Shown: piece after piece, positions 18,604 through 22,671 of the stretch
How positions within the stretch are numbered: the stretch's first letter is position 1
Layout: every line of letters starts with the position of its first letter
Source of the DNA: Paenibacillus sp.
Lineage (GTDB): Bacteria > Bacillota > Bacilli > Paenibacillales > YIM-B00363
Assembly (NCBI RefSeq): GCF_035645195.1
Contig: NZ_DASQNA010000030.1
Location: 310,001-374,000, forward strand
Length of the DNA: 64,000 nucleotides
Reading direction: 5' to 3'
Translations under genes and position numbers: made by a program
The notes under the pieces: generated by a model
What the model saw: only the letters and a program-made list of their open reading frames with translations
Told to the model about the DNA's origin: nothing
Database searches by the model: none

Positions 18604-18755
18604 GGGACGAGCTGAAGCGTAGAGTGAATTGATCGAGATGGGTCCCGGCTTATTTAACACGAGCTTTTCGGCGCCGCAACGCGGCTTCCTCCTTGTTTGC
18701 ACCATGTGATACACTGATGTTACTTTATCGAAACGCTGGGGAAGGGCAGAGAGAC

Positions 18756-20405
18756 ATGATGGGACGAACGATTCCGGTGCATATCGTCGCCGGTTTTTTG
18801 GGCAGCGGGAAAACGACGGCGCTCCGGCGCGCGATCGACGCGTATCAGCTTCGAGGGCTGCGTCCGGTCGTCATTATGAACGAGCTCGGCGACGTCAATC
18901 TGGACGGCGAGGCTCTTGGGGCGAGCGGCGAGCCGGTGCCGACGGCGGAGATGCTGGGCGGCTGCATCTGCTGCACGATCCGCGGCGACATCGCATTGCG
19001 GCTGCAGGAGCTGGTGCGCGAATACGAGCCGGACGCGGTGTTTATCGAAACGACCGGCGTCGCGAATCCGATGGAGCTGATGGACGCGGTCACAGAAGCG
19101 TCGCTGTATTTGCCGGTTACGCTCGAGTCGGTCGCGACGGTTGTCGACGCGGCGTTCGTCGCGGGCGAAGCGGGGAAGCCGACGGCGCGAACGATGCGGC
19201 TGCTGCGCGATCAGGTGCGGTGCGCGACCCGCATCGCGCTGAACAAAACCGACCGCGTGTCGCCGGAGGCGGCGGACCGGGCGGAGGCGCAGGTGCGGGA
19301 GTGGAATCCGGTTGCGCCGCTAGTCCGCACGGCGTACGGGGCGCTGCCCGCGGCATGGTGGTTCGAGCGCGGCGGCGGCGCGCGTTCGGAGCGGGACGCC
19401 GCATCGTCGGACGCTCATGCCTGCGGACCGGATTGCGGCCATGATCATCATGGCGGACACGACGTTCGCGCACATGGCGCCCGGGGGCATCACGATTCGC
19501 ACGAGCATGTGTCGGCGTATACGCGTTATTTCCAAGCGCCGGTCGACAGCCTCGCGTTCGAGTCGTTCGTCAAATCGCTGCCGGACAACGTGTACCGGGC
19601 GAAAGGCGTCGTCACATTCACGGATACGGCGAGCCGCTTTTTGTTCCAGTACGCTTATAAGGAGCTCGACTTCATCCGGATCCAGCCGCAGGGACATGTG
19701 AACGACGTTGCGGTGTTTCTCGGGGAGCAATTCACGCCGGAATCCATCGAAGCGGGGCTTGCGGCGCTCGAGCGGCCGGCATCGGTGCGAGCCGGATTGC
19801 GGGAAGCGTACGACCGGCATGCGGAGGAGCGGGACGGCGGCGGCATCCAGGATTGGAAGGTCGCCGAGCGGGACCGGTTTTTGGCGGCGCTGCGGGAAGC
19901 GAAGGCGGAGTCTCTGCTGGAAATCGGCGCGGGTCCGGGGCGCGACAGCCTATTTTTCGCGGAGAACGGCCTGCGCGTCACGGCGGTCGACCTGTCGGCC
20001 GAAATGGTGCGTCTGTGCCGGGAGAAAGGGCTCGACGCGCGGCAAATGGACATGGCGGAGCTCGATTTTCCCGACGATTGTTTCGACGCCGTGTACGCTT
20101 TGAATTGCTTGCTGCACATCCCGAAGGCGGAGCTCGATTCCGTGCTCCGGGAAATTCGGCGCGTGCTGAAGCCCGGCGGGATGTTTTACATGGGCGTGTA
20201 CGGCGGGATCGATTCGGAAGGCGTATGGGAGCAGGACGTGTACGAGCCGAAGCGGTTTTTCGCCATGTACGAGGACGACGATATGCGGGAGGCGGTCGGA
20301 CGCGTGTTCGAGGTGGCGTATTTCGGCACCGTGAAGATGGCCGACGGCGGGCGTCAGCCGCATTTTCAATCGATGATCTTGCGGAAATCCGCCAATTTAT
20401 GGTAA
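18756..20405 (+). CDS. COG0523/CobW-type GTPase fused to a SAM methyltransferase
   Basis: A 549-residue two-part protein. Residues 1-~340 form a G3E GTPase: Walker A GFLGSGKTT at 13-21, metal motif GGCICCTI at 68-75, NKTD at about 163, a His-rich loop at about 218-253 (HACGPDCGHDHHGGHD) and a CobW C-terminal domain. Residues ~367-549 form a class I methyltransferase with motif I LLEIGAGPGRDS and the VLKPGGMFYMGVYGG strand. COG0523 proteins insert or deliver metals such as zinc; the methyltransferase substrate is unknown. ATG 18756 is preferred over an earlier in-frame ATG at 18693 because it follows GAAGGGCAGAGAG and begins directly at the GTPase fold. The frame crosses the junction without a stop. 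No Zur-like operator was recognised upstream. Confidence 0.88.
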   Translation: MMGRTIPVHIVAGFLGSGKTTALRRAIDAYQLRGLRPVVIMNELGDVNLDGEALGASGEPVPTAEMLGGCICCTIRGDIALRLQELVREYEPDAVFIETTGVANPMELMDAVTEASLYLPVTLESVATVVDAAFVAGEAGKPTARTMRLLRDQVRCATRIALNKTDRVSPEAADRAEAQVREWNPVAPLVRTAYGALPAAWWFERGGGARSERDAASSDAHACGPDCGHDHHGGHDVRAHGARGHHDSHEHVSAYTRYFQAPVDSLAFESFVKSLPDNVYRAKGVVTFTDTASRFLFQYAYKELDFIRIQPQGHVNDVAVFLGEQFTPESIEAGLAALERPASVRAGLREAYDRHAEERDGGGIQDWKVAERDRFLAALREAKAESLLEIGAGPGRDSLFFAENGLRVTAVDLSAEMVRLCREKGLDARQMDMAELDFPDDCFDAVYALNCLLHIPKAELDSVLREIRRVLKPGGMFYMGVYGGIDSEGVWEQDVYEPKRFFAMYEDDDMREAVGRVFEVAYFGTVKMADGGRQPHFQSMILRKSANLW

Positions 20406-20450
20406 GCTGATTCGTAAGTTTTCAACTTCGGTAGATAAGGAGGTGTCAAC

Positions 20451-20579
20451 ATGTTGTCGATCGCCGCTCGTAGCAAAGGCGCCCAAACCTGGGTCCGTCA
20501 AGCTACCATCGTATTCCGTTTCGCTGCGAACGGGAGAGGTGTGTCCAAATTCGGCGATGACAACGCGTTGACCCTTTAG
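20451..20579 (+). CDS. 42-residue leader peptide upstream of the ABC-F gene
   Basis: A short ORF starts at ATG 20451 behind a perfect AAGGAGGTG (20438-20445). It encodes 42 residues, beginning MLSIAARSKGAQTW and ending KFGDDNALTL. It stops at TAG 20577, 41 bp before a strong terminator that precedes the ABC-F gene. The layout (strongly translated short ORF, then terminator, then resistance-type ATPase) is that of ribosome-mediated attenuation, where a drug-stalled ribosome on the leader changes RNA folding. I do not recognise the peptide itself as a characterised stalling sequence. Confidence 0.75.
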   Translation: MLSIAARSKGAQTWVRQATIVFRFAANGRGVSKFGDDNALTL

Positions 20580-20608
20580 CGTTCGGAGCTGCAGTCGGCT
20601 TGTTTAGC

Positions 20609-20660
20609 GCGACGGCTTTGGCCGCGGGTGGAAGGTTGTCCTTTCGCCTGCGGCTTTTTT
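20609..20660 (+). terminator. Attenuator: terminator with a competing anti-terminator arm
   Basis: The terminator stem is GCCGCGGGTGGAAGG (20621-20635) with CCTTTCGCCTGCGGC (20640-20654): 15 bp including G-U pairs, a 4-base loop, then six T. Its left arm can instead pair with GCGACGGC at 20609-20616 (loop TTTG, one bulged A), a plausible anti-terminator. The hairpin sits between the leader ORF and the ABC-F start at 20704, so it should stop transcription unless the upstream RNA is remodelled. Confidence 0.8.
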
Positions 20661-20703
20661 GCGTGCTCTGAATTCCAAAAATTTACACCGAAGGTGATGC
20701 TAT

Positions 20704-22671
20704 ATGTTGCTGTGCGCAGCGGATCGAATTTCGAAAAACTGGGGCGGCGCCCCTGTCTTGAACGAATGTTCATTGGAAATTCGCGAAGGCGAGCGGATCG
20801 GCCTCGTCGGGCCGAACGGTTGCGGCAAAACGACGCTGCTGACGCTGCTGTCCGGTGCGGAAGCTCCCGATGCCGGAGCGATTCATTATAAGAAAGGCTG
20901 CCGGGCGGCGCTGCTCTCGCAAATCCCGGACTTCGGCCCGACGCGTACGGCGGGCGAGGTGCTCGCGGAGGCGTTCGAGGAGCTGCTCGCGATGCGGCGT
21001 CGGCTGACCGAGCTGGAGCGGGACATGGCGGACCCGGACCCGGCGTCGGCGGAGAAGGCGATGAAGGCGTACGGGCCGCTGCTCGACGCGTTCGGGGCGA
21101 GGGGCGGATACGAGATGGAGGCCCAGCTGTCGCGCGTGGCCGACGGGTTAGGCATCTCGGGGCTGCTCGATCGCCCGTTCGGGCAGCTCAGCGGCGGGGA
21201 GCGGACGAAGGTCGGGCTCGGGCGCATTTTGCTGCTGAAGCCGGACGTGCTGCTGCTCGACGAACCGACGAATCATCTCGATTTGCCGTCGGTCGAGTGG
21301 CTCGAGTCGTATCTGCTCGATTACCCGGGCGCCGTGCTCATCGTGTCCCACGACCGGTATTTCCTCGACCGGGCGGCGACGAAAATCGTCGACCTCGAAG
21401 GCGGCGCGGCTGAGACGTATCACGGGAACTACTCGTATTTCGTCGAGGAGAAGGAGCGGCGGCTGCTCGCGGAGTTCGCGGCGTATCAGGAGCAGCAGAA
21501 GAAAATCAAGAAGATGGAGGAAGCGATCAAACGGCTGCGCGCCTGGGCGTCGCAGGCGGACAATCCGGCGCTGTTCAAGCGGGCGGCGGCGATGCAGAAG
21601 GCGATCGACCGGATGGACCGGATTCAAAAGCCCGTGCTGGAGCGAAAGCGGATGGGGCTCGCGTTCGATATGACGGAGCGGAGCGGCAAGGACGTCGTCG
21701 TCATGGAGGGCGTCGGCGCCGTCTTCGGCGGGCGGCGGCTGTTCGCCGGCGTCGACCTGCTCGTCCGGTTCCGGGAGTCGGCGGCGATCGTCGGCGAGAA
21801 CGGGAGCGGCAAGTCGACGCTGCTGCGGATGGTGACGGAGGGGCTGGCGCCGGCGGAAGGCGAGGTGCGCGTCGGCGCGGGCGTGAGCGTCGGATATTTG
21901 GCGCAGCACGACTTGTTCCCGGATCCCGAGCGGACGATCCTCGATGCGTTCCGCGACGAGGTGCCGGTCGAGGAAGGCGAGGCGCGGCATTTGCTCGCGA
22001 AGTTTTTGTTTTACGGTGCGTCCGTGTTTCGGAAGGTGAAGCATTTGAGCGGCGGCGAACGGATGCGGCTGCGGCTCGCGCAGCTGATGCACCGGGACGT
22101 GAACTTCCTGGTGCTCGACGAACCGACGAACCATCTCGACATCGACGCGCGGGAGGCGCTGGAAGACACGTTGGCGTCGTTCCCCGGCACCATTCTGTGC
22201 GTATCGCACGACCGATATTTTTTGAATAAGCTGTTCCCGGTCACGTACTGGCTGGAGGGCGGACGGCTGACGCGATACGAAGGCGGATACGACGAAGCGA
22301 AGCGCAAGCGCGCCGAGCTGGCTGCGCGGCCTAGGGCGCCGGTGCCGGGCGTTGGCGCGGGCGCAGGAGCGGGCGCAGGCGAAGGCGCGGGGTCGGGCGC
22401 AGGCACGGGCGCCGGTGCGGCGCGAGGCGGCGGGGCGGCCGCTGGCGCGGCGGCGCGGAAGCGGCCGTCCGAAGCGGGCGCGAAGTCGGGCGGCCCGGCG
22501 GAGGCGGCGCGGCTCGAGCGCGACATCGAGACCGCGGAGCGGCGCATCGCGCTGCTCGACGAGGCGATGGCGCAGGAGATCGACGCGGCGAAGTTGGCCG
22601 CGCTTTACGCCGAGCGCTCCTTGCTCGAAGCCGAACGGGAGCTGCTATACGATCGGCTTGCGCGGCCGTAG
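20704..22671 (+). CDS. ABC-F ATPase, antibiotic-resistance/translation-factor type
   Basis: A 655-residue soluble protein with two ABC domains and no TM segments. Walker A motifs are GPNGCGKTT (about 36-44) and GENGSGKST (about 363-371). Signatures are LSGGERTKVG and LSGGERMRLR, and both Walker B/ABC-F motifs read DEPTNHLD. The interdomain linker (about 255-310, EEKERRLLAEFAAYQEQQKK onward) is the part that reaches the ribosome in this family. After the second ABC domain come a Gly/Ala-rich stretch and a coiled-coil C-terminal extension. ABC-F proteins bind the ribosomal E site and either dislodge antibiotics or rescue stalled translation. The attenuator upstream favours a drug-inducible resistance role (Vga/Lsa/TaeA-like), but the specific drug class cannot be read from sequence. 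Confidence 0.88.
   Translation: MLLCAADRISKNWGGAPVLNECSLEIREGERIGLVGPNGCGKTTLLTLLSGAEAPDAGAIHYKKGCRAALLSQIPDFGPTRTAGEVLAEAFEELLAMRRRLTELERDMADPDPASAEKAMKAYGPLLDAFGARGGYEMEAQLSRVADGLGISGLLDRPFGQLSGGERTKVGLGRILLLKPDVLLLDEPTNHLDLPSVEWLESYLLDYPGAVLIVSHDRYFLDRAATKIVDLEGGAAETYHGNYSYFVEEKERRLLAEFAAYQEQQKKIKKMEEAIKRLRAWASQADNPALFKRAAAMQKAIDRMDRIQKPVLERKRMGLAFDMTERSGKDVVVMEGVGAVFGGRRLFAGVDLLVRFRESAAIVGENGSGKSTLLRMVTEGLAPAEGEVRVGAGVSVGYLAQHDLFPDPERTILDAFRDEVPVEEGEARHLLAKFLFYGASVFRKVKHLSGGERMRLRLAQLMHRDVNFLVLDEPTNHLDIDAREALEDTLASFPGTILCVSHDRYFLNKLFPVTYWLEGGRLTRYEGGYDEAKRKRAELAARPRAPVPGVGAGAGAGAGEGAGSGAGTGAGAARGGGAAAGAAARKRPSEAGAKSGGPAEAARLERDIETAERRIALLDEAMAQEIDAAKLAALYAERSLLEAERELLYDRLARP

Follow-up and report, generated by a model that had tools for sequence, protein, structure and literature searches.

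Attenuators with an upstream ORF (uORF) have already been described in front of ABC-F, erm, mef and bmr genes (PMC9226507, PMC10201436, PMC6851288, PMC4191407, PMC4335068). The attenuation logic has been established experimentally for vmlR of Bacillus subtilis, in which stalling occurs at initiation on a 3-codon uORF (PMC9226507), and the cplR leader of Clostridioides difficile responds to induction by retapamulin and lincomycin (PMC10201436). For yxjB/tlrB of B. subtilis, a pause of RNA polymerase has been argued to be necessary for the ribosome to load before the Shine-Dalgarno (SD) sequence is sequestered (PMC6851288). No discernible homology was reported between the leader regions of mef(E) and erm(K) (PMC4335068).

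The locus described here is located in a 64,000-nucleotide stretch of DNA from a Paenibacillus species, termed the window, and consists of a long leader ORF, an intrinsic terminator and an ABC-F gene (Table 1). It is very probably a ribosome-mediated attenuator of transcription in front of the ABC-F gene, and three successive states are assigned to it. All of the parts that are characteristic of ribosome-mediated ABC-F attenuators were found, namely a uORF with an SD, a terminator, a mutually exclusive antiterminator and an anti-antiterminator that overlaps the uORF, together with conservation upstream of orthologs. The first-pass annotation had proposed a leader-peptide attenuator at this position, and the proposal is upheld by selection on the leader as coding sequence, by helices that covary, by conservation of the terminator and by a one-to-one association with the ABC-F gene. 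The 42-codon leader ORF and its ribosome binding site are indeed present, the SD being near-perfect, and the 15-bp terminator, followed by six T residues and then by the ABC-F start, is exact in the sequence; both ORF and terminator are kept in 19 genomes.

Directly upstream of the leader, on the same strand, the window encodes a fusion of a CobW-type GTPase with a SAM-dependent methyltransferase (18693-20405). The sequence immediately in front of the leader yielded no convincing sigma-A promoter, and no tRNA was found in the leader region. The ABC-F protein passes only the broad NF000355 cut-off (designated "ribosomal protection-like" by NCBIfam) and is far under every cut-off of the named resistance subfamilies (Vga, Lsa, Msr, Sal, OptrA, CplR and others). 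Its closest solved relatives include the housekeeping proteins EttA and Uup, as well as VmlR, and similarity of fold would not separate resistance from housekeeping ABC-F proteins. The window gene is probably an antibiotic-protection gene, the product of which would be expected to protect the ribosome.

Table 1. Positions of the leader elements, the ABC-F gene and the loci that share the leader motif (window coordinates unless a locus is named).
Feature	Position	Strand	Basis or remark
Shine-Dalgarno AAGGAGGTG of the leader ORF	20437-20445	+	Sequence; GGxGGTGTC invariant in the 19-row alignment
Leader ORF, 42 codons, MLSIAARSKGAQTWVRQATIVFRFAANGRGVSKFGDDNALTL*	20451-20579	+	ATG 20451, TAG 20577-20579; coding signal; kept in 19 genomes
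seg1, 5' strand of P1 (anti-antiterminator): SD end and leader ORF start	20445-20458	+	Covariation with seg2
P1b 5' strand (partner 20552-20558)	20460-20466	+	Two-sided changes at several pairs
Shared motif AACGGGAGAGGTGTGTCC	20529-20546 (core CGGGAKNNRTNTGYCY, 20531-20546)	+	Also in leaders of unrelated ribosome-drug resistance genes
seg2, GACAACGCGTTGACCC, last codons of the leader; partner of seg1 (P1) or seg3 (antiterminator)	20559-20574	+	Covariation, folding
GCGACGGC, element named in the first-pass annotation	20608-20615	+	GGC...GCC in 19/19 relatives; probable antiterminator accessory
seg3, GGGTGGAAGGTTGTC, left arm and loop of the terminator; antiterminator partner of seg2	20626-20640	+	Covariation, duplex energy
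Intrinsic terminator, 15-bp stem, TTGT loop, T6	20621-20660 (GCCGCGGGTGGAAGG/TTGT/CCTTTCGCCTGCGGC, 20621-20654; T6, 20655-20660)	+	Sequence; 98% of cells paired in the alignment
ABC-F gene, 655 aa, ribosomal protection-like ABC-F family protein	20704-22671	+	ORF, NCBIfam
Motif loci	Window 20531-20546; L031-L050, L089-L101, L133-L168, L182-L188	sense
ErmD-type leader cassette loci	L182-L188 (plasmids), L147, L153, L156, L157, L166

The ABC-F gene and its leader are present in all six genomes of the genus. In total, a leader profile detected the leader in 19 of 395 genomes of Paenibacillales, which belong to two GTDB families, and in every one of the 19 the leader is followed by the terminator and by the same ABC-F gene, at 63-83% identity to that of the window (its own genome excluded). 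Two further matches to the profile (L051 and L052) were dismissed as chance, and a match of the start pattern GGAGGTGTCAAMATGTTG on a viral contig was set aside for its unrelated context; among 104 genomes of the second GTDB family, only chance-level matches were obtained beyond those already found. The annotation had named lack of conservation upstream of orthologs as an observation that would tell against the attenuator. The leader passed this test across the 19 genomes: no ABC-F ortholog of at least 63% identity was found without it, all such orthologs being in leader-carrying genomes, and the next best ABC-F matches are at most 54% identical.

The leader is conserved as a coding sequence as well as a structured RNA. 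In the 19-row alignment its 126 coding nucleotides contain no insertion or deletion, whereas the stretch from leader to terminator is of variable length, and frame 0 alone gives a high BLOSUM-based coding score (z 4.4; 0/300 column shuffles). Together, the frame-0 signal and the lack of indels indicate coding selection in the leader in addition to the constraint on its RNA, and such selection in turn suggests that the ORF is translated. The position of the stop codon is variable: among the 19 leaders, several extend beyond codon 42 by a few codons or have a different final residue. The coding signal bears directly on a different reading of the locus, that of a ligand-binding riboswitch with an untranslated ORF, in which a small molecule, perhaps the drug itself, would choose between P1 and the antiterminator. 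The large, stable, covarying and multi-branched fold would suit a riboswitch, as would the conservation of a motif across leaders at the nucleotide level. It would not, however, account for the frame-specific signal, the absence of indels over 126 nt in 19 genomes or the invariant SD; moreover, the motif also occurs in ErmD-type leaders, for which translation is known to be important (PMC4335068). We consider the riboswitch very improbable, although it fares best among the alternatives.

Folding of the attenuator RNA is considerably more stable than that of shuffled sequences, both in the leader (z -5.7) and in the terminator region (z -4.2), and the helices P2, P2a and P3 lie inside P1/P1b. 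In the 19-row alignment, the structure formed by P1 and the terminator is paired in 96% of cells, with 14 pairs changed on both sides (35-49% paired in a control with slid partners). The antiterminator, seg2:seg3, is paired in 94% of cells and includes 3 pairs with two-sided changes (40-54% in the slid control). The two helices are mutually exclusive. Alignment column 125 covaries with column 22 in P1 and also with column 256 in the antiterminator, a dual covariation that is hard to explain unless both helices matter. The antiterminator can form 13-14 pairs, with a duplex energy of -14.8 kcal/mol in the window, and an exchange of seg2 between two sequence types weakened the pairing from -13.6 to -10.3 kcal/mol.

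The annotation had already assigned an alternative, mutually exclusive partner to the left arm of the terminator, but the GCGACGGC that it named is not the main partner. A local GCGACGGC/GCCG antiterminator would be in line with the GGC...GCC found in 19/19 relatives, but the pairing (CGGC at 20612-20615 with GCCG at 20621-20624) amounts to only 4 bp, against the 13-14 possible covarying pairs of seg2:seg3, and covariation places the main partner at 20559-20574. As the main antiterminator it is thus very unlikely and was rejected. Owing to its retention in all 19 relatives, the short pairing is probably an accessory, which would cap the antiterminator.

The seg2:seg3 switch was also apparent in folding of partial transcripts. 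When the nascent RNA was folded to the end of the terminator loop, P1 and no antiterminator was obtained in 19/19 sequences. When the 5' part of the leader was made unavailable, the antiterminator appeared in 18 of the 19 (10 of 14 pairs in the window); here an occupied leader was mimicked by deletion of everything 5' of alignment column 101, which is inside the motif, and the deletion spans more than a single stalled ribosome would cover. In the complete transcript the terminator was always the more stable, even with seg1 blocked, and the switch must therefore be kinetic, like other attenuators.

We propose the following three states. On a leader without a ribosome, seg1 would pair with seg2 to form P1, seg3 would be free and the polymerase would stop before the ABC-F gene. 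During normal translation, the ribosome would run over seg2 and be released at the stop codon just 3' of it, such that the terminator would form again. If an antibiotic were to arrest the ribosome early in the leader, on or close to its first codons (roughly codons 1-9), seg1 would be covered, seg2 would capture seg3 during synthesis and the polymerase would read into the ABC-F gene. Since unavailability of the 5' part of the leader lets the antiterminator form, a ribosome held near the leader start should turn the gene on. The switch would presumably require such a stalled ribosome, and its inducers would most likely be inhibitors of early elongation, i.e., pleuromutilins, lincosamides or streptogramin A. 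The inference of drug inducibility is strengthened by the occurrence of the motif in the leaders of Erm, Cfr, Mph, Mef and Msr genes. The motif, which is 5' of seg2, is further proposed to act as a pause for RNA polymerase, during which the ribosome would load before its binding site is sequestered; the 3' end of the pause would then fall within or just after CGGGAGAGGTGTGTCC.

Two features of the peptide deserve comment in this context. Residues R7-S8-K9 conform to R/K-X-R/K, the arrest motif for macrolides, and occupy the position at which the stall was mapped in MIIQFIRYR, the leader peptide of yxjB (PMC6851288); since the motif is absent from 5 of the 19 leaders, a macrolide signal is taken only as a lead. 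As a counterpoint to the early-stall model, the middle of the leader (WV..ATIVFR) is conserved more than the model needs, and W14-V15 and the ATIVFR region are among its most conserved residues. Such conservation might indicate that the leader peptide senses a signal other than a drug, either amino acid supply, given the invariant Trp14, or through nascent-chain arrest at WVxQATIVFR. The same codons, however, also lie in the RNA helices P2, P2a and P3, tandem Trp codons are absent, and the downstream gene encodes an ABC-F protein; we assign such a signal a very small likelihood. Least probable of all is that the terminator only ends the CobW-methyltransferase transcript and that the ABC-F gene is constitutive, for although the end of a co-oriented upstream gene lies at 20405, the leader ORF, P1 and the antiterminator would then not be conserved, and the sequence 5' of the leader differs in other genomes, whereas the leader is kept.

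The occurrence of the motif was analyzed beyond the 19 genomes. Its core is present in the leaders of 13/13 more distant ABC-F homologs, which were fetched by protein similarity alone and whose leader sequences differ from that of the window. Of 395 Paenibacillales genomes, 250 contained a match to a loose pattern of the motif, against few matches in the control, and a stricter pattern gave ∼63 matches in 300 Bacilli genomes versus none in the control. At 28 of 30 loci with the strict pattern, a resistance-type gene was detected downstream on the same strand by tblastn; 27 of these are convincing, as the match at L154 is weak and distant. The representatives carry the NCBIfam names Erm, Cfr, Mph, Mef, Msr ABC-F, RlmA-type and ribosomal protection-like ABC-F. 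A closely similar ErmD-type leader cassette is common to erm, mef, mph, RlmA-type and msr genes, some of them on plasmids, and plasmid records found with one ErmD-type leader have it in front of annotated erm(D), mef(F) and mph genes, and of an RNA methyltransferase gene that is followed by msr. At L154:447 (reverse strand), a phosphotransferase-like fragment takes the place of a macrolide gene behind an intact ErmD-type leader, and the locus may represent a rearranged cassette.

The strand that base-pairs with the leader SD lies just 3' of the motif. In ErmD-type leaders (MTHSxRLRFPTLNx) the motif is 3' of the leader stop codon, and this position outside the ORF marks it as a nucleic-acid signal. 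Within each leader type it is conserved above its flanks, in a set that was partly chosen by the pattern itself. The RNA just 3' of the motif pairs with the leader SD and start in most leaders (mean z -2.97 for 42 loci; 64% below -2), the pairings of the ErmD type being AU-rich, long and often not significant versus shuffles. In other gene families, a search for an antiterminator by duplex prediction against shuffles at 21 loci (with motif or terminator undetected in 4) was mostly not significant.

Several additional candidates were discarded. The peptide NGR(S/G)L(S/P) was rejected as a general arrest motif, since the same nucleotides follow the stop codon in ErmD-type leaders and are either after the stop or out of frame in ABC-F2 leaders; as a peptide it may be relevant in the long-ORF leaders. 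A small stem inside the motif (GGG/YCC) had weak, one-sided support. The TTNTTT that marks a NusG-dependent pause, in the non-template strand 3' of the pause hairpin, was not found, the window having CCAAATTC after the motif, and the T-run is not conserved. Genome G127 (L128, L139-L141) contains eleven identical copies of AACGGGAGAGGTCTGCCC, apparently within a repeated element, and these were not accepted as attenuators. In a second ABC-F subfamily (L024, L132-L137, L163-L165, L168), the leader is short and its stop codon abuts the motif, which in several members occupies a loop closed by TTGGCTTA/TAAGCCAA.

On balance, we lean slightly toward the view that the core CGGGAKNNRTNTGYCY is a common attenuator part for unrelated resistance genes of Bacilli (ABC-F, Msr, Erm, Cfr, Mph, Mef and RlmA/TlrB-type), where it would act as a polymerase pause or recruitment site that times ribosome loading. 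By analogy with yxjB, a role as an RNA polymerase pause before SD sequestration is plausible (PMC6851288). If the motif is functional, unrelated resistance genes of environmental and some mobile Bacilli would use one control element, which would provide a sequence handle for inducible resistance genes of unknown spectrum and would allow the part played by polymerase pausing in drug-inducible attenuation to be tested directly in several gene families.

Neither the window nor 16 loci with related leaders matched Rfam release 15 at the gathering score, and the matches at permissive thresholds were chance only. No published description of the leader family, of a switch whose strands are the two ends of the uORF itself, or of the cross-family motif was found in the open-licence literature, which constitutes weak evidence of novelty. 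The locus extends the known attenuators by a leader family whose clear three-state switch can be put to the test and is built from the two ends of the uORF.

The resemblance to the described systems is of different degrees. The erm(D)/erm(K) and mef(E) attenuators likewise combine a leader ORF with a terminator (PMC4335068), and the ErmD-type leaders carry the same 16-nt motif and an SD that pairs with the RNA just 3' of it. Unlike the leader of the window, they have a short RLR-type leader, the motif after the leader ORF instead of inside it, and other downstream genes. The yxjB/tlrB leader shares the leader peptide, the intrinsic terminator and the argued RNA polymerase pause, but its leader is a 9-codon RYR peptide, it has no antiterminator, the SD of the main gene is also sequestered and the pause is NusG-dependent. 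The bmrB leader of B. subtilis bmrCD, compared by its description, is similar in its long translated leader (53 codons), anti-antiterminator, antiterminator and terminator (PMC4191407); in contrast, its terminator is inside the leader ORF and an efflux ABC transporter is controlled. The cplR leader also precedes an ABC-F gene, with a uORF in a 5' hairpin and a terminator upstream of the gene (PMC10201436), but the uORF has 3 codons (MRI) and the terminator stem additionally masks the SD of the gene itself. In the vmlR leader, as in the window, an ABC-F gene is preceded by a uORF inside an anti-antiterminator hairpin, an antiterminator and an intrinsic terminator, and a stall at the uORF start frees the antiterminator strand, a likeness of logic that is drawn from the description. 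The ABC-F relatives that are 48-54% identical to that of the window also have long leaders, of different sequence. The 3-codon uORF at the base of the first stem-loop, which defines vmlR-type leaders, is not present in the window, whose leader would work alike without being a member of that type: in place of the three codons of vmlR (MIN) it has 42, the last of which form the switching strand itself.
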